Origin: a virus
Virus record (IMG/VR): IMGVR_UViG_3300047586_000059
Coordinates: 1-28,417 of that record
Length of the DNA stretch: 28,417 bases
Direction: 5' to 3' (one strand)
The notes beneath the pieces were generated by a model. It saw only the letters and a program-made list of their open reading frames with translations. It was not told the origin of the DNA and searched no databases. The position numbers and the translations under genes are program-made. Positions 1 through 28,417 of the stretch are shown piece after piece (position 1 is the stretch's first letter; each line of letters begins with the position of its first letter).

Positions 1-1481
1 TCATAATCCGGCACGGGATCAGGCTCGGTGTTGTCATGTTTGAATTGATACACTTCTCGCGCTTTAATAAATACGCCGCTTTGCTCATCGCCATGGTAAA
101 ATGTTACTGCCTTCGGTTTCTGTATGAAAATCTTATCGCTCGTACCATCCTTTAGAGGTAGGAATGTTCCGTAAGACGTTGAATGATTCCTTTGCGTTAT
201 TAATCTCAGACGATAACATTTATTCGCAGAGTCATAAAATACTATCGGAGTGAATCCGAAGTTCCGGGCCAAGACGATCAATAAATCCTTCGCTGTTTTG
301 CAATTATAAGGATCCCCTGGAAAATCATCCCAGCATGCATCATTCGTATCGATATTCAAAGACAATACAGTCGGATCAGTGCTCAAAAAAACTTCATCGC
401 TTTCGTTGGTGCGGAAATATCTGAAATCATGATTATCGATAATCGGCAATGCCAGTGCTGCGGTGTCCGTTCCGAGTTGATACATGAACTCTGCAAACAT
501 CCGCATGACATTGAGAATATTATGTCCGGCATTTTGTACTGGTTCTAAATGCCTGCTTGCTTGAATGGCTGTTATGATATCGGCAATGTCGATGTCGTCA
601 AGTTTGTTTAAGAACGATATCGCCGTGAATTTTGCATGCCTTCTCGCCATCGTGGCATCTACGAATGTTTCGGGAAAATCTTTTGTCTCGAGATCAATGG
701 AGCCGATAAATTCTGTGATGGTAGAATTTCGTCTTACTCGAATATCGCACGGCTGCATGAGCAAATCATAAAAGAAATTATCCTTGTCGATGAATTCAAA
801 ATCCATATTTTGGATCGTTTGTTCCGTTGGATTGCTGGGATCTTCGCCTTCTAAGCTCTCATTTCGATTTCCCATGCTGACAAGTAGATTCTGGGTTGGA
901 ACATCCAACTCTGTGAGCGTGCTGTTGAAAAATTCTATCGTGTACACTTCACCCTTAATCGTCACATCGGGGAGCGTGTATTGCGGAACGATGGGATCGA
1001 CTATCGCGGCGAAGTTTGCCTGAATCGTTGCATTGCCGTAATAAATTCTAACCGATAACGACGGATTGGCTACATCTCCGAAGAACTGTACTGTGCCGCC
1101 TGTTACAGTCCAGTTGACAAAATTATATCCAGTAGTTGGAATGGCTTCGATTGGAGTCCATGCACCCTCTTGAATAGTTGCTCTCATCCCGGATTGCGGA
1201 TCTGTTGTACCGTGGCCGTCATTGGTCAGAGTGAGAGAATAAAGTCCAGCGGCGAAGTTTGCTTGAATCGTTGTATCTTCTGTGATCGAAACCCATGTTG
1301 AGCTATGGGAAGCATTATCAAATGTTGCCGATCCCGATATCACCGTCCAATTGACAAAATGATAGCCGGCATTATCCATAGCCTCAATCAGAGTCGGTAC
1401 ACCGGACTCATGTGTAATAGGTACCGATGGATCTGTAGTACCATGTCCATCATTTTGTATGGTGAGAAGGAAGGAAGGCAT
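1..1481 (-). CDS. Tail-tip/baseplate-type protein with two N-terminal InlB-like repeats (3' end cut by window)
   Basis: An open frame starts at ATG 1481-1479 (TAATG overlap with the tape measure stop) and stays open to base 1, giving 493 visible residues. Residues about 5-78 and 82-159 are two copies of one repeat: both carry the motif NDGHGTTDP near the start, GY-x-FVNWTV in the middle and TIQANFA at the end. This pattern is the divergent InlB B-repeat/bacterial repeat family seen in surface adhesins. The remainder, from about residue 165, is not recognised by family but sits directly after the tape measure gene, where distal tail or tail-tip proteins lie in siphophages. I infer a tail-tip or host-contact protein with an adhesin-like N-terminus. 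The C-terminus is outside the window. Confidence 0.8.
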   Translation of the reverse strand, partial: MPSFLLTIQNDGHGTTDPSVPITHESGVPTLIEAMDNAGYHFVNWTVISGSATFDNASHSSTWVSITEDTTIQANFAAGLYSLTLTNDGHGTTDPQSGMRATIQEGAWTPIEAIPTTGYNFVNWTVTGGTVQFFGDVANPSLSVRIYYGNATIQANFAAIVDPIVPQYTLPDVTIKGEVYTIEFFNSTLTELDVPTQNLLVSMGNRNESLEGEDPSNPTEQTIQNMDFEFIDKDNFFYDLLMQPCDIRVRRNSTITEFIGSIDLETKDFPETFVDATMARRHAKFTAISFLNKLDDIDIADIITAIQASRHLEPVQNAGHNILNVMRMFAEFMYQLGTDTAALALPIIDNHDFRYFRTNESDEVFLSTDPTVLSLNIDTNDACWDDFPGDPYNCKTAKDLLIVLARNFGFTPIVFYDSANKCYRLRLITQRNHSTSYGTFLPLKDGTSDKIFIQKPKAVTFYHGDEQSGVFIKAREVYQFKHDNTEPDPVPDY

Positions 1482-3739
1482 TAGATATTAATCTTCAGAT
1501 TTTTCGTTTTACGATTTTCGACGATAAATAATAATTTCCTATCGTCGATCGTTGCGGTAAGTTCCAACTTGGAGAGATTGTCATTGAGCATCGACAATTG
1601 ACGTTCCATCCTCTTCGTGGATATCTGTGCAGATATCTGATTTCGTGACTCCTGAATCGATCTATACCCTGCAACGTTGATTCCATCGCGGGCGATCAGG
1701 TCTAAGGTCTGCGGAATTAAATAATCCTTCGCAGCGGTCATAAAGTCTTGTTCGGGTGCTACATATTCATTATCATCGCCCTCACCGATCATGGCAAGCG
1801 TAGGCTTTGTGATCCGAGTACCTTTGGCGAGTCCTTGGGGTTGCGTGGATGTAATTGCTGCCACGTCTGCAAGACCGGCGGCGATAACTATTGCAGCGAG
1901 AATCTCTCCTATGATCGGCCCAACGGTTAGGGCTTTGGCCGCCGCTTCGTACGTGTTGACAGTCGCTTGGGCTATTGCAAATGCTTTTTGTACTTCCCAT
2001 GCGCTCTTCATCGATGCCCGGTATTTGGCATCCATCTCTTTGTCGAGTGCATCTTTTTTCGCGGCATACTCTACATTGATTGCGTCCTTTGCTTTTTGCG
2101 TTTTCGCATGGTCAAGCTTTTCTTGTTCTTCTGTATTTAAAGCATCTTCACGGGTTTTCTTTTCATTGTTTAAATCGTTGCGGACGGAATTGTCCTTCAC
2201 GTTGACGAGTTCATCGACGGCATGGGATGCAACACGCATGGTTTCACTTTCGGCCTCGGCTAATCTTTTCTCATCCTTATCCTGTTTGCCGAGTTTTGAA
2301 TCGATATCATCAAGTAAAGTTTTTCGTTCCCTCAGAAGTTGGTTTCGCTCTTCTTCGGTAAGATTCAAATTCATTAATTTGTAGTTGATTATATCGACAT
2401 TGTGCTGTTCTTCACCGGCGGAACCTGTATCGCCGTAATATGCGCCTGGCGGTTTCTCTTTTGCAGTTGCGTCCTTCTGATCCTGTGCTTTTTTCTCTGC
2501 GTCTGTTTTCTGGCCGATCAACTTAATATTGCCTTGAAGTGCGTCATTCTGCATTCGCATCTGGAAGAGTTTGTTTTGTTCATAGTCCAGCTCTTCACGC
2601 GTGAGCGGCTTCAAACCCAACTCAATGCGCTCAAGATTTATTTTGTTGAGTTCTTCGAGACGGTGTTCCTTTGCGGTCCCCAATTCAGCAATGGCGAGTT
2701 CGTGCTTCTTCTTTTCGATATCAAGGCCGAGACGATCTATTTCACTCTGACTTTCCGATATGTTTTGTTTCTTTTCAAGCTCAGAGACTTCATCCTTCAA
2801 CAGAGGAATACGTCCCATATTGTTTTCGATCAATGAGAGGTCATGCTTTTTTTTGTCAATGTCCAGTCCGAGTTGATTGATTTCATTCTGATTTTTCGAG
2901 AGGTTCCTTTTTATTTCGAGTTGCGAGATTTCTTCCTTTAACTCTGGAATTAAACCGGTCTCCTGTTTCTCGAAAACGTCCTTATATTGTTTTTGAAGTT
3001 CCAGAATCTTATTTATTTGATCTTCATAATCCTTTACTGTCGTTCCTCCAATATCTTCCCTGCCAAGTTTCCCAAAATCAAAATGTATTCCTCCTTCGCC
3101 AATTTTCATTTTATCGAGTATGGCCTGTTCGGAATTTATTTTTTCTCGTAAATCGGCGAGGATTAATTCTTTCGGTGCAAGTTTCAGATCAACCAATAAT
3201 TGGTGTTGTTTTTCCAGCGAGGCGTTAAGACTATCACCCGCTTTTTGGGATTCTTTAAAATAACTAATCAATCCCGCGCCCACTGTTATGATACCAGCAA
3301 TCGCGATAGCCGTTCCACCGGAAGCGAGTCCAAGTCCTGCGATAGCAAAATCGGCAACTTGAAAAGTTCCAATCCCTCCCATAATAGCAGAATCAAGTTT
3401 TTTCTGTGACTCCGTGGCATTAGCCGTGTCGCCTCGCAATGCCATGTAAGCCATTGAGATTCCCATAATGGCTTGGCGGGATTCTCTAAATAAGAATGCT
3501 TGCTCTCGCTGTGCTGTGCGTTGAGTGTGAATGAACTCGGTGAGCTTGTTAGTTTCTTTGCCGTGACTTACTATTGCATCGGTAGCACCGTCAATATCTG
3601 CTTTAAGCGCGCCAGCGCCATCAAGCTTCATCGCTGCGTTTGCCTGCCCTGCTGTTGCCTTTACAGCGGCGGGGATCTGATCCAGCTTTGCAAGTGCCGG
3701 ACCAATATCCATTCCGAGAGTTATATTCGCTTCAGGCAT
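1481..3739 (-). CDS. Tape measure protein
   Basis: A 752-aa protein following the frameshifted tail chaperone gene, the classic place for a tape measure. Residues about 118-160 form a hydrophobic Gly/Ala-rich stretch; long charged coiled-coil regions fill 170-580; a second hydrophobic segment covers about 603-630. The C-terminal part has the typical tape-measure wording AKGTRITKPTLAMIGEG near residues 638-654. A 47-residue coiled-coil unit is repeated at about 264-310 and 311-354 (motifs IPELKEE and IPLLKDE, both ending with GLDI-[DE]-KKKH). By the usual rule of about 0.15 nm per residue, the tail would be roughly 110 nm long. It acts as the length ruler inside the tail tube and is delivered with DNA. 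Confidence 0.9.
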   Translation of the reverse strand: MPEANITLGMDIGPALAKLDQIPAAVKATAGQANAAMKLDGAGALKADIDGATDAIVSHGKETNKLTEFIHTQRTAQREQAFLFRESRQAIMGISMAYMALRGDTANATESQKKLDSAIMGGIGTFQVADFAIAGLGLASGGTAIAIAGIITVGAGLISYFKESQKAGDSLNASLEKQHQLLVDLKLAPKELILADLREKINSEQAILDKMKIGEGGIHFDFGKLGREDIGGTTVKDYEDQINKILELQKQYKDVFEKQETGLIPELKEEISQLEIKRNLSKNQNEINQLGLDIDKKKHDLSLIENNMGRIPLLKDEVSELEKKQNISESQSEIDRLGLDIEKKKHELAIAELGTAKEHRLEELNKINLERIELGLKPLTREELDYEQNKLFQMRMQNDALQGNIKLIGQKTDAEKKAQDQKDATAKEKPPGAYYGDTGSAGEEQHNVDIINYKLMNLNLTEEERNQLLRERKTLLDDIDSKLGKQDKDEKRLAEAESETMRVASHAVDELVNVKDNSVRNDLNNEKKTREDALNTEEQEKLDHAKTQKAKDAINVEYAAKKDALDKEMDAKYRASMKSAWEVQKAFAIAQATVNTYEAAAKALTVGPIIGEILAAIVIAAGLADVAAITSTQPQGLAKGTRITKPTLAMIGEGDDNEYVAPEQDFMTAAKDYLIPQTLDLIARDGINVAGYRSIQESRNQISAQISTKRMERQLSMLNDNLSKLELTATIDDRKLLFIVENRKTKNLKINI

Positions 3740-4308
3740 TTACTTATTCCGTTCTCGTTCTCTTTCCCGCTCTAATATTCTCATCGATTCTCTCAGTGCT
3801 GATACTCTTCGTTCGTACAAAAAATCATACAAGACTTCAATACTCGTTCTCTTCGCAACAGGCAACGCCGTCAGTTCGCCGCCGGTGAGTGTGTAGAGGA
3901 TTTTGGATTTATCAGAGATTGGTTCGCGTCCTTCAAACTCTGGAGACTCTCCAAAAGCTTCGGCACATTCATCTTCGATAATTCGTTCTGCATTTCCAAG
4001 ATCTCTAAAACGCCTATCATTCCATTTGTGATAGCCACGTAGCCAGCGAAAAAATCCTTGAGCGCTTCGACCTCCACGTCCATATCGATGCGATGGAATT
4101 CTTCCAGTTGCTGTGCTTCAAGTTCCGGCGTCCATTCCTTGCCTTCGGGAATTAAAACATTCGCAAGAACTTTGAGACTGTTTTCCTGATCAAGGTTTGT
4201 TGTATCTTTGCCGCGGAGAATATCTGTGACGCGTTCGTATTGATCGTGGATGAGTTTAGGGATGTAGTACGTTTTCCCGAGCGCTTGGTATTTCTTTGCT
4301 TCTTCCAT
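3740..4308 (-). CDS. Tail assembly chaperone GT fusion made by -1 frameshift
   Basis: Reading frame 0 from ATG 4308 contains the heptamer T-TTT-TTC at 4054-4048 (codons 86-87). The -1 frame after it is open for 102 codons down to a TAA at 3742-3740, directly abutting the tape measure ATG at 3739. This would give a product of about 189 aa. The -1 frame reads as sensible protein (motifs RFRDLGNAERIIEDE, LTGGELTALPVAKRTSIEV, then an Arg/Glu-rich helix), whereas otherwise 3740-3870 would be non-coding. Siphophages and myophages commonly make gpG and gpGT this way just before the tape measure. The GT form would recruit tail tube subunits onto the tape measure. The frameshift is inferred from sequence only. 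Confidence 0.8.
3871..4308 (-). CDS. Tail assembly chaperone, short (G-like) form
   Basis: A 145-aa, mostly helical and acidic protein. Start ATG 4308 follows the Shine-Dalgarno CGGAGG by 7 nt. The frame stops at TGA 3871. It lies between the major tail protein and the tape measure gene, the position of lambda gpG and its analogues. Only the first 87 residues would be shared with the frameshifted GT form. The 58 residues after codon 87 read plausibly in this frame too, so this stretch is dual-coding. I do not see a named domain; assignment rests on position, size and the slippery site. Confidence 0.8.
   Translation of the reverse strand: MEEAKKYQALGKTYYIPKLIHDQYERVTDILRGKDTTNLDQENSLKVLANVLIPEGKEWTPELEAQQLEEFHRIDMDVEVEALKDFFAGYVAITNGMIGVLEILEMQNELSKMNVPKLLESLQSLKDANQSLINPKSSTHSPAAN
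4048..4054 (-). other. Programmed -1 frameshift slippery heptamer T TTT TTC
   Basis: On the minus strand the bases read T-TTT-TTC in the zero frame of the chaperone gene (codons GAT TTT TTC GCT). This matches X-XXY-YYZ with X and Y both T, so both tRNAs can re-pair after slipping one base back. The new frame continues TTT TTT CGC TGG. No strong pseudoknot was identified by eye downstream; the short repeat TGGCTA-CG-TGGCTA lies directly after it. Confidence 0.75.
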
Positions 4309-4445: not shown

Positions 4446-5243
4446 TTAAGCCTCTGTAGCGACATATCCGTCGTTCGGCGAATTTACATGCAAAGTCGTA
4501 TAGGCACGGCTCACCGGTGCGAATGTGTTGGATGCTTTTGTCGGCGTCACGCTTGCATTGAAGCCGTACGCTACATCGATTTCATAAGCGCCAAACTCAT
4601 CTGTCTCTGTGGTTTTGGCTGTTCCATCCATCCAGCTCAACAACACACCTTCCACTGGGTCGCCGGTTTCAGAATCAAGAATAAATCCTGAAATCTTTTC
4701 TGTCGGACTTCCAACGGGAATGTTCAGCAACCGGCATTCATCTTTATCGCCGACAATTTCACGCGAGCCGGAAATGACATACGGCGCTACTTGACCGTTT
4801 CCAACTTTCACATCCTCATCGATGTGCGTCGTGATCGGTCGAAGCACCGTGCATGTCACACCGGCTGGTAAGGGTGTAACACCGAGAAGATCCGCGAGGG
4901 TCTTGTATGCACCGGCTTCATTCTCCGGAACCAACTCCGGAAGGTTCTCGCTATTGACCAGGACAATGCAATTCAATGCATTATCGAGATCCTCGAAAGC
5001 GGTGCTCGGTGCAAGCTTCGAGATGATTTGAATATTCACTTCCAACGTATTGGAAAGCGAATACTCAACATTCGAGCTGCTCATTTCCTTCTGCGTTGCT
5101 TTGCAGGTGTAGCCCGATTCTGCTTTGGCTATTCCAAGAACTTGCAGATCCGATGCAGCGATAGTGGAAATGCCCGAGAACGGAGTGGGCAACGTTGCCT
5201 TACGGCAAATGTAGGCATTCTGGTAATTGAATTGAGGAGGCAT
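4446..5243 (-). CDS. Major tail (tube) protein with C-terminal Ig-like domain
   Basis: A 265-aa protein; start ATG 5243 follows AAAGGAT by 6 nt. Position immediately upstream of the G/GT chaperone genes and tape measure points to the tail tube subunit. Residues 1-180 would be the tube domain; residues about 183-265 form a carboxypeptidase-regulatory/CNA-B-like Ig fold (ISGFILDSETGDPVEGV, then FGAYEIDV, then SVTPTKA). Lambda gpV likewise carries a C-terminal Ig-like domain displayed on the tail surface. The same domain type ends the protein encoded at 6247. The tube assignment is by context; the Ig-like domain is visible in the sequence. Confidence 0.7.
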   Translation of the reverse strand: MPPQFNYQNAYICRKATLPTPFSGISTIAASDLQVLGIAKAESGYTCKATQKEMSSSNVEYSLSNTLEVNIQIISKLAPSTAFEDLDNALNCIVLVNSENLPELVPENEAGAYKTLADLLGVTPLPAGVTCTVLRPITTHIDEDVKVGNGQVAPYVISGSREIVGDKDECRLLNIPVGSPTEKISGFILDSETGDPVEGVLLSWMDGTAKTTETDEFGAYEIDVAYGFNASVTPTKASNTFAPVSRAYTTLHVNSPNDGYVATEA

Positions 5244-5278: not shown

Positions 5279-5674
5279 TTATTCATAAGTGATACAGTCA
5301 AGCATTACTTCACGGGCTTTTTCACTACCGATCAATAACCCGCCGCGGTCAACACCGTTTTCTTTTACTCGAATCTTGAGACCAGCGAAATTCTTCATCA
5401 CATTCGTTGCCAATGTTTCCGCCGCGGCACAAGCGGTATCAAATGGAGTCTCGTGGGCCGAGACAACGCAATGCATGACGATGTTATGTTGCTCAACGCT
5501 GAATTTACCCGTTGAAATATATTCGCCTTGCGTTGGTCCAGCTTCGATTGCAACGATCGGAAGTTTGCCTTGAAGATCCTCTGACTCATCGAGTGTGCAT
5601 GCAATGATTGGATGTGCTTCATCCGGACCAATGAGACGCGCTTTGAGCTTCACTATTTCGGTGTAAAGGTTCAT
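5279..5674 (-). CDS. Tail completion / tail terminator-like protein
   Basis: A 131-aa protein whose ATG 5674 overlaps the stop of the preceding HK97 gp10-like gene by 4 nt (ATGA). It has an N-terminal helix and mixed alpha/beta character (IVAIEAG, VMHCVVSAHETPFDTACAAAETL). In HK97-like gene order the gene between gp10-like protein and major tail protein is a tail terminator or tail-to-head joining protein (lambda gpU type). Function is assigned by order and size only. Confidence 0.6.
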   Translation of the reverse strand: MNLYTEIVKLKARLIGPDEAHPIIACTLDESEDLQGKLPIVAIEAGPTQGEYISTGKFSVEQHNIVMHCVVSAHETPFDTACAAAETLATNVMKNFAGLKIRVKENGVDRGGLLIGSEKAREVMLDCITYE

Positions 5675-6246
5675 GCCATCATTGCCCGATAGTCGCGCTC
5701 GATTTTTGGAAGTGCTTGTCTCAACGCGAAATCAAAAAACTTGAAACCTTTTGTTCCATGTTTCGCAATTGCGAAAGCGATTGCCGTTGCTGCCTGAGTA
5801 TCTTGCCAATACTGATCCATTCGATTCCCGAGACGATTTCCATGCAAGCCTAAACGTGACATATCCTTTCCGCTGATCGTAACTCGTCTTCCAAGTATTG
5901 GACTCTTCACCGAATATCGTCCAGCGATTCCTTTGAGCCGGACCCAGTCTCGTATTTTATAAATCGGCGGCACTCCACCTGGAGCGCGTCCTTCGTGTGC
6001 ATAAAAAGCATAATCCAATGGAGAGAAAACAACGATTTTGATAAATGTTCCGAAGATGCTCGTTTCATAGGTGATGCTTTTTCGCAACTCGCCGCTTGCG
6101 TTCTTTTTGTTTTCATCAAGCACTTTCACCGTTTCCGCTACCAAGAGATTCCCGACACGGTTTGCAAATCGTTCAACGATTATGCGGACTTGTTCCTTGA
6201 CTTCTTTGATTGCTTGTTCAGCCGATGTGAAAGAGGTGTCGGGCAT
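5671..6246 (-). CDS. HK97 gp10-like head-tail/tail completion protein
   Basis: A 191-aa protein starting at ATG 6246 directly after the TAA of the upstream gene. An N-terminal helix (EQAIKEVKEQVRIIVERFA) is followed by a region with LDYAFYAHEGRAPGGVPP at about residues 77-94. A 'Y-a-x-x-x-H-x-G-r' segment like this is a hallmark of HK97 gp10/bacteriophage minor tail completion proteins. It would join the tail to the capsid neck. It forms an ATGA-coupled pair with the next gene. Confidence 0.75.
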   Translation of the reverse strand: MPDTSFTSAEQAIKEVKEQVRIIVERFANRVGNLLVAETVKVLDENKKNASGELRKSITYETSIFGTFIKIVVFSPLDYAFYAHEGRAPGGVPPIYKIRDWVRLKGIAGRYSVKSPILGRRVTISGKDMSRLGLHGNRLGNRMDQYWQDTQAATAIAFAIAKHGTKGFKFFDFALRQALPKIERDYRAMMA

Positions 6247-6939
6247 TTATATCAATTCAATGGATACCGAATAATCTTGATTCACTTGTGAGGTCTTGAT
6301 CGCGGCATAATCGATATGAGTCGCCGTGAACGAGGCGAGAACGATTGAACCCCCCGTTTTTGTTGGCGTTACCGTGCCCGTCCAATTGTAGGGGACGGAG
6401 AGAACATAATCTCCATCTGCATTTGTGACCACCTGTTTCGTCACTCCAGCAACGACGTAGGTCATGAGTACGCCCGATCCGCCTGTGTGGCTGATGGAGT
6501 TTTCTATGTTCCCCGAAATCCAAAGAAGGCCCGGCGCTCCATGCAGTGCCGCCATTTGCGCTTTGCTCAATACCCGTGTGAAGGAACATTTAATTCCTTC
6601 GTACGTTCCATCGCCGTCAAGAACAGGATCAACGGTGAGGGCGACCTGTGTGAATAATAAATCTTGAGCGGGCGAATCATTTCCATCGGCGAAACTTACA
6701 TCAAGCTTTTCATTTGCGATTAGCACCGCGTAGAGATTCGCATAGTCCACATTGGAGTTTCCCATCAAGGTGAATTCAGCTTTGACATTGCTTCCGAGAT
6801 GATAGGCGTTTCCATCTGAAGCTTGTGGAGTCATTACGGCAGCCGGTGTGATCTTGACGCCGGTGTTTGCTTCAGGAGTGTACAGAGTTTCGGCGCCTTG
6901 AAGAAGTGTAATGGCGAATTGTCTGAGTATCTTTGACAT
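6247..6939 (-). CDS. Phage structural protein with C-terminal Ig-like domain (possible longer start at 7044)
   Basis: The preferred start is ATG 6939, preceded by AAAAGGATACTCCC, the same leader as the gene at 13135; this gives 230 aa. The frame stays open upstream to ATG 7044, which has its own AAGGAT 13 nt before it and would add 35 residues containing a single transmembrane segment (LLGILILACCAGILGY). The body is beta-rich. The last 90 residues form an Ig-like domain with GDYVLSVPYNW and TVTPTK, matching the C-terminal domain of the major tail protein. It lies between the tailspike and the tail completion genes. Role unknown: a tail or head decoration protein is plausible. Confidence 0.7.
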   Translation of the reverse strand: MSKILRQFAITLLQGAETLYTPEANTGVKITPAAVMTPQASDGNAYHLGSNVKAEFTLMGNSNVDYANLYAVLIANEKLDVSFADGNDSPAQDLLFTQVALTVDPVLDGDGTYEGIKCSFTRVLSKAQMAALHGAPGLLWISGNIENSISHTGGSGVLMTYVVAGVTKQVVTNADGDYVLSVPYNWTGTVTPTKTGGSIVLASFTATHIDYAAIKTSQVNQDYSVSIELI

Positions 6940-7063
6940 GGGAGTATCCTTTTCTTTTAATTTCTTATACTTACTTTCAGCTATTCTATAACCTAAGATT
7001 CCCGCGCAACAGGCGAGAATCAGTATTCCGAGTAATTGTATCATTGCTTTGAGTTTTATCCTT

Positions 7064-12312: not shown

Positions 12313-12732
12313 TTATGGCCGAGGAAGAATTATGAGCGATCCGTAAACATGCGCTGTTCCGGTGGTCGTATATTTAAACCGGACGTAAGGATCGGTATGC
12401 GGAATATACATTCGTAGTGCCCCTGCGCCAACTACTTGAGTGAAGACTGAATCGGCTATCCATTTTGTACCGTTTGGACTTCCATAGATCGCAACATTGA
12501 GTGTGCAAGCAGATGCAACAGTGTCTGTTATCAAATAACAAATCACGGATTTTGCACCGGACCCGAGATAAATGTTTCTCGTGGTTGAATCGATACCCGT
12601 TGCGTACGCATGAGCGGCCATGATGGTCGTCGGTAAATAATTTCCCTTGTAATCCTTATCCGCCGTCAACTGGGGAAATGCTACCGATACAACGAGTGCA
12701 ATCATAAGGGTTGCAAATAAAAATTGTTTCAT
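12313..12732 (-). CDS. Secreted-type beta protein in the structural module
   Basis: A 139-aa protein. ATG 12732 follows AAGGAGTTGAGACA. Residues 1-20 look like a Sec signal peptide (MKQ, then FLFATLMIALVVSVAFP, then Q). The mature part is beta-rich, with YGSPNGTKWIADSVF, YVRFKYTTTGTAHVYGSLII; such a C-terminal pattern is common in beta-sandwich phage decoration domains. A signal peptide would send it out of the cytoplasm, which argues against a capsid role and for an envelope or lysogenic-conversion role. Function unknown. Its start region is duplicated upstream. Confidence 0.6.
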   Translation of the reverse strand: MKQFLFATLMIALVVSVAFPQLTADKDYKGNYLPTTIMAAHAYATGIDSTTRNIYLGSGAKSVICYLITDTVASACTLNVAIYGSPNGTKWIADSVFTQVVGAGALRMYIPHTDPYVRFKYTTTGTAHVYGSLIILPRP

Positions 12733-12864
12733 TGTCTCAACTCCTTTTTAAATTGTGGAATAATTTTCGTTTCCGTTTCACTTACCAAAAAATTGTTTCA
12801 TTGTCTCAACTCCTTTTTAAATTGTGGAATAATTTTCGTTTCCGTTTCACTTACCAAAAAATTG
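12719..12864 (+). repeat. Perfect 69-nt tandem duplication containing a translation start
   Basis: Bases 12719-12795 equal bases 12788-12864 exactly, a 69-nt period with two full copies plus 8 nt. Each copy holds, on the minus strand, the Shine-Dalgarno AAGGAG, the start codon and the first codons of the secreted-type gene at 12313-12732. Complete identity suggests either a recent duplication or selection for sequence. Confidence 0.97.
12778..12801 (-). other. Seven-codon leader ORF created by the duplication
   Basis: The upstream copy of the duplicated start gives ATG at 12801 with the same AAGGAGTTGAGACA leader. It encodes M-K-Q-F-F-G-K and then TGA. It ends 45 nt before the true start at 12732. 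It could capture ribosomes and alter translation of the downstream gene, or be a by-product. Confidence 0.35.
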
Positions 12865-27101: not shown

Positions 27102-28417
27102 TTAAATAATTTGTTCAATCGTTCCATCCTCCGGATGCAAATGCAATCGCTGTTGGACTTGTTGCCAAATTTCTGGAGTCTGTGTGATGAGAAACGTGTA
27201 ATATCTTCGCCCAAGTCTGAAAGCTTCCCGGGACATTTCAACAAAGTGTTGCTTGTTGTCCGGATCCAGAGCGCCGTCCTTTTCGTCCGCGAAATTGGTC
27301 AAGAATTCATGCCCTGATTTTTCTGAGTTGTAGATTCCGATAGAATCTTTTAATGCTTCCTCAACCCATACTTCTTGACCTCCGCTAAGATCTTCAACCA
27401 TCTTCTCACCTTCCGCGCCATAAACTCGGATGTCGAACGTCTCCACCTGTTTCTTTTTGTCTTTCGTCAAGCGCGTTGTTTCAAAGGCAATCTGAAACCG
27501 TGAGCCGAAAGTAGATGCGAGCAACTCGTTTGCGATCCTTGATACTTCCGGACCCGCTGCATCCAGCTCGAGGGCGGGTATTCCATCCTTGCTGCAAGCT
27601 CGATGCAAGAGTTTGTGATTTTCCAACGATGAGAGTTTGAATGTGAGATCCGATTCCATTACTTCTGCATCCGCTTTAAACGCATCCAGCTTCTTAATCA
27701 TTTCCTGGCGGAACTGGATATCGCCGATGGTTCTCGCCCGCCGTTCGCTTTCCTGTTTTTGTGCGTTGGCAGTTACGGAGAGAGCTTCCTTGTGCCGCTG
27801 GAAGGAAACGAGATCTTGTTGCGTTAAGAGAGACGCCTTTACCTCTTCCCATTTTTTGCGCTTGGCATCCGATTGCTTCATTGATTCCGAGAGTGTTTGC
27901 AGATGTTTCGTGCATTGATCTTCGCTTCTCTCTTTGAGACTGAGTAAGGCTTTTTGCTTTTCTTCAATCATCGATTCTGCAAGCCTCAACTCTTCAATCA
28001 ATGATTCCCAGTTTCCTTTTTCGAGATCCTCAACTTCCTTCTTGTTCTGAAGGTGTTGGCCGGCGTCGTACCCGATGGAGCGCTTTTGAGAATCCCATTC
28101 ATCCGGAAAGAATTCTGTCGGTAAGGAGAGAGATTGCTTCTGTTCTCGCAGCTCCTGGAGTCGTACTCCCAAGTTGTCAAGTCCGTTCTTTCCGCGGTAA
28201 TCCTCGTCTTCCAGTTCATCGGACCTGTTCTCGAGAAGATTGATCTTCCCGCGTGATTCCATTGCAGAAGAAAGCAGCTTGCATTGCTCAGGCAATCCGG
28301 AAATCTTGGAACATGGAACTTCGTCAATCAGTGACGTGGCTCTTTCTGCCTCTTCCAGCTCTCGATTCACACGGTTTAATTCTGTGTCGAACTGCTTATT
28401 CAATTCCCGCATGTCCG
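27102..28417 (-). CDS. SbcC/Rad50-like ATPase, C-terminal part (5' end cut by window)
   Basis: The frame is open through base 28417, so the N-terminus with Walker A lies outside. About 438 residues are visible. Numbered from Met at 28412: VPCSKISGLPEQCKLL at 32-47, where C34 and C44 may be a degenerate zinc hook; coiled-coil to about 230; the ABC signature LSGGQ at 342-346; then a Walker B/D-loop-like FLTNFADEKDGALDPDNK at about 370-387. This matches phage SbcC-like proteins, which with a nuclease partner (SbcD) process DNA ends. The gene may be followed upstream by such a partner, not seen here. Confidence 0.85.
   Translation of the reverse strand, partial: DMRELNKQFDTELNRVNRELEEAERATSLIDEVPCSKISGLPEQCKLLSSAMESRGKINLLENRSDELEDEDYRGKNGLDNLGVRLQELREQKQSLSLPTEFFPDEWDSQKRSIGYDAGQHLQNKKEVEDLEKGNWESLIEELRLAESMIEEKQKALLSLKERSEDQCTKHLQTLSESMKQSDAKRKKWEEVKASLLTQQDLVSFQRHKEALSVTANAQKQESERRARTIGDIQFRQEMIKKLDAFKADAEVMESDLTFKLSSLENHKLLHRACSKDGIPALELDAAGPEVSRIANELLASTFGSRFQIAFETTRLTKDKKKQVETFDIRVYGAEGEKMVEDLSGGQEVWVEEALKDSIGIYNSEKSGHEFLTNFADEKDGALDPDNKQHFVEMSREAFRLGRRYYTFLITQTPEIWQQVQQRLHLHPEDGTIEQII

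Follow-up and report, generated by a model that had tools for sequence, protein, structure and literature searches.

A predicted G/GT-type -1 frameshift at T TTT TTC ahead of the tail tape measure gene in an environmental phage

The gene preceding the tail tape measure gene of the virus studied here very probably encodes a G/GT-type pair of tail assembly chaperones, in which a -1 slip at the heptamer T TTT TTC joins a short G-like protein to a T-like extension. The window, i.e., the whole stretch of DNA analysed, is the IMG/VR record IMGVR_UViG_3300047586_000059 in full (28,417 bases), and its source is a virus of bacteria known solely from environmental DNA and without close known relatives. 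The G/GT frameshift proposed in the original prediction is supported by the position of the gene, the heptamer, the open frame and its abutment on the tape measure gene, together with a dual-coding signal, the absence of start codons from the -1 frame ahead of 3865, and a like layout in three head-module relatives.

The short gene lies at 3871..4308 on the minus strand. It is an open reading frame with an ATG, an upstream GGAGG and good 0-frame codon usage, and would yield a G-like tail assembly chaperone of 145 aa; from its stop to the tape measure start at 3739 there is a gap of 131 bases. The predicted T TTT TTC at 4054-4048 is present and in frame on the minus strand (4048..4054), where it covers codons 86-87 (Phe-Phe) and is the sole canonical in-frame heptamer of the overlap. 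The slip position, codon 86-87 of 145, is thus as anticipated and leaves 58 codons in the 0-frame, forming a dual-frame stretch at 3874..4047 (minus strand) supported by synonymous resampling. Counted from the C at 4048, the -1 frame stays open for 102 codons before TAA, and this candidate T-like extension (3740..4048, minus strand), recognized from the open frame and its codon statistics, reaches the tape measure start just as had been claimed: its TAA (3742-3740) abuts the ATG at 3739 with 0 nt between. The full open stretch of the -1 frame spans 4117-3740, or 126 codons with the stop included, and the +1 frame has seven stops within the overlap. Among 457 -1-frame runs taken from 28 further genes of the record, none reaches 126 codons and three reach 102.

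Under the frameshift reading, most ribosomes would read 4308-3871 in the 0-frame and produce the 145-aa G-like protein. At a rate that, like the slipping itself and the chaperone role, we infer, a minority of ribosomes would slip back one base at Phe86-Phe87 (TTT TTT) through tandem slippage of two Phe tRNAs, and would then read the -1 frame to the TAA adjoining the ATG of the tape measure gene, giving a predicted GT-like fusion of 189 aa (87 + 102). By analogy with lambda, the G-like parts may cover the tape measure protein, while tail tube subunits may be recruited by the T-like part; both would depart before the tail is completed.

Start codons bear directly on how the extension could be translated. 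From 4117 to 3865 the -1 frame contains no ATG, GTG or TTG, and the extension therefore needs a shift. It is very improbable that the extension is translated as an independent gene from a start codon of its own and not as part of a fusion, as might be suggested by one head-module relative (L047), where a similar gene is followed in the T position by an ORF that begins with an ATG, and by the ATT and ATC codons present in the -1 frame of the window. However, a start at the TTG at 3865, which has no clear ribosome site, would omit the constrained segment 4002-3907; with -1 start codons absent from 4117 to 3865, ordinary internal initiation cannot reach this constrained part, which begins near 4002.

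Canonical X XXY YYZ heptamers occur in frame 37 times in 7667 codons of the record; at that frequency, by simple arithmetic, the 82 codons with an open -1 frame should contain about 0.4. Because this class is so common, the heptamer by itself is weak evidence, although the exact T TTT TTC has no further in-frame site in the surveyed genes of the record and T TTT TTG has one. Past the heptamer, the codon usage of the -1 frame (-4.002) exceeds that of 97.5% of equal-length -1 windows, and 13/1615 -1 windows of that length are stop-free. We also resampled the overlap, holding the 0-frame protein fixed and redrawing synonymous codons at the record's own frequencies. Over the 58 codons, the -1 frame was open and at least as codon-like as observed in 0.02% of draws (P = 0.0002), and the overlap looks dual-coding because so few resampled sequences match it in both respects. 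For 4002-3907 alone, an open and codon-like -1 frame arose in 0.055% of draws (P = 0.00055); in the first 15 codons past the heptamer, resampling was uninformative either way. The original reading of most of the overlap as sensible protein in both frames therefore holds for the overlap as a whole and for 4002-3907, with those first 15 codons uninformative.

The reverse resampling, with the -1 frame fixed, gave an open and codon-like 0-frame in 0.8% of draws (P = 0.008). This result bears on whether a single true gene has been split by a mistake of one base in the sequencing or assembly of the T6 run, a concern that arises since the virus contig comes from metagenome data and the shift point is a homopolymer. 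An error of this kind is exceedingly improbable: the 0-frame stays open for 58 codons past the heptamer and remains codon-like once the -1 protein is allowed for, and a like layout is found in the separate contigs of three head-module relatives (L025, L045 and L070). The homopolymer, which extends to seven T in L070, also brings to mind slippage of RNA polymerase, which would add a U to the transcript in place of ribosome slippage. Yet six T is a short run for polymerase slippage, and the run lies in the exact codon phase for tandem tRNA slippage, making this explanation scarcely credible. A further reading of the two overlapping frames is that the C-terminal 58 residues of the 0-frame form a second functional domain of the short form only, so that two products would have different jobs rather than differing by an added T domain; we regard this as unlikely.

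The exact slip site deserves separate consideration. A codon-usage change point analysis prefers a switch near 3993 to one at 4048 by about 7 log units, which casts some doubt on the slip site. In keeping with a later switch, the mean distance from a tail chaperone slip site to the 0-frame stop is 26-36 nt in two published data sets (PMC10885494). It is conceivable, albeit quite unlikely, that the gene pair is real and ribosomes slip later, on a non-canonical sequence like CCA AAA (codons 135-136, 3906-3901), which lies 27 nt ahead of the 0-frame stop. But upstream of CCA AAA, in 4002-3907, the -1 frame is already open and codon-like at the P value of 0.00055 given above; from 4048 to 3871 there is no canonical heptamer, and an overlap of 61 codons is found in phage SPP1. 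T TTT TTC remains the preferred site.

The predicted folding of the RNA 3' of the heptamer is no more stable than that of shuffled sequences (z 0.68, -0.45 and -0.53), and no stimulatory hairpin was found there; a 3' stimulator of this kind is not among the traits that define the G/GT type. On the minus strand, GGAGG is found at 4071..4075, 16 nt upstream of the heptamer; 1.1% of coding positions have a GGAGG in the 22 nt upstream of them. For an upstream stimulator of the GGAGG type, the textbook spacing is about 10 nt, shorter than the 16 nt here, and this motif is a possible but unproven upstream stimulator of the shift. AlphaFold models were of low confidence (pLDDT 48 and 56), too poor a basis for comparing folds.

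We examined the packaging-to-tail genes on the minus strand, which comprise the terminase (19314-17941), portal, minor head protein, head maturation protease, capsid, neck, tail genes and tape measure. The tape measure protein (1481..3739, minus strand, 752 aa) matches phrog_1506 (2.6e-10) and phrog_3336 (1.4e-8), and a neck/tail completion protein (5671..6246, minus strand) matches phrog_5 (1.3e-7). On the same strand, a probable tail terminator (5279..5674) is assigned by position only, Pfam and PHROG searches having given no family, and a probable tail tube protein (4446..5243) has a C-terminal carboxypeptidase-regulatory-like domain (PF13620, 2.4e-5, under the Pfam cut-off). The PHROG search of this tube candidate gave no match, and its role is therefore deduced from position. 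The proteins of 4446-5243 and 6247-7044 have similar carboxypeptidase-regulatory-like domains at their C-termini (BLAST 6e-6), which suggests, from sequence likeness, two decorated tail or tube-like proteins. Elsewhere in the window, a perfect 69-bp direct repeat (12719-12864, 2.1 copies) lies over the start region of the gene at 12732-12313 and may reflect either true duplication or misassembly; at 27102-28412, part of an SbcC-like nuclease subunit, matching the C-terminal half of the phrog_77 profile, reaches the record edge.

Searches of the viral contigs found no relatives of the G gene, the tape measure, the neck protein (alone) or the portal; the phage collection held none of the G gene, tape measure, tube or extension, and the plasmids none of the G gene. 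Genome contigs scanned with TerL and capsid gave no matches, and the TerL relatives of the window have little in common with it beyond TerL. Since Pfam, PHROG and NCBIfam profiles gave no above-cut-off tail chaperone match for the G gene, we claim no named sequence family for it. A GtgE match in Pfam (E 0.0079, below cut-off) and a match to phrog_9907 (0.0028) were put down to chance. A weak match of the G gene in L060 (E 0.36) was set aside, as the locus turned out to be differently arranged; at L060:9046-9754, the end of a gene in the chaperone position is overlapped by a short ORF that follows it in a different frame.

Forty-six head-module relatives were gathered by capsid alignment, and L070 by neck alignment. 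Relatives lacking the heptamer or carrying stops in the -1 frame had been named beforehand as evidence against the frameshift; L025, L045 and L070 carry T TTT TTC or T TTT TTT together with an open -1 frame, and their tail genes are not sequence homologues of the G gene of the window. In the contractile-tail relatives L025 (11405-12351) and L045 (16018-16964), T TTT TTC is found in the gene ahead of the tape measure, and the -1 frame ends, as in the window, in a TAA next to the tape measure start codon. This pair differs from the window in that the upstream gene encodes a 250-aa T4_baseplate family protein (PF12322, 2e-14) and the slip site lies 30 nt before its stop. Between the two extensions, changes by -1-frame codon position number 8/1/26, with 26 synonymous and 4 nonsynonymous codon changes; on these counts, the -1 extension of the pair is under purifying selection. 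The syntenic L070 resembles the window in its all-T heptamer, its long overlap (96 bases before the stop) and a -1 TAA overlapping the tape measure ATG (resampling P = 0.011), but its heptamer is T TTT TTT and its gene has no sequence similarity to that of the window. L030, with a Phage_TAC_5 (XkdN-like) match, likewise has a heptamer, A AAA AAC, and a -1 frame after its tail chaperone, but differs from the window in a slip 3 nt before the stop and in its protein family; L042 also has A AAA AAC. In L047 and L057, a -1 frame is present and no canonical slip site is found. The control, Rhodobacter phage RcCronus, for which a joined product is annotated from its tail assembly chaperone, has an open -1 frame, with G GGA AAC located at the stop.

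Taken as a G/GT pair, the locus is an ordinary frameshift in a divergent phage, of a mechanism already known; correct gene calls for this phage group follow from it, and no new question is raised. The G/GT frameshift, including UUUUUUC and an SPP1-like early slip, recurs here in a phage without detectable tail-protein relatives in the collections searched, and this recurrence supports a mechanism conserved without sequence conservation. The lambda heptamer differs from the T TTT TTC of the window. As in the window, a -1 shift in the lambda gene before the tape measure gives G and GT, a system widely conserved despite low sequence similarity, whereas the lambda slip lies near the 3' end of G (PMC5009743) and that of the window 58 codons before the stop. 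The original prediction had implied that so early a slip is odd, but a matching one is found in SPP1, in which gp17.5 (173 aa) and gp17.5* (297 aa) have 112 residues in common and the shift is predicted at UUUUUUC (PMC6316719). By this published description, SPP1 shares with the window the UUUUUUC, the -1 direction, a long overlap and a gene position directly ahead of the tape measure. An early slip is thus nothing new, because SPP1 leaves 61 codons after its slip (112/173 shared), against 58 in the window (87/145), and the SPP1 fusion is the longer, at 297 aa compared with 189 aa.
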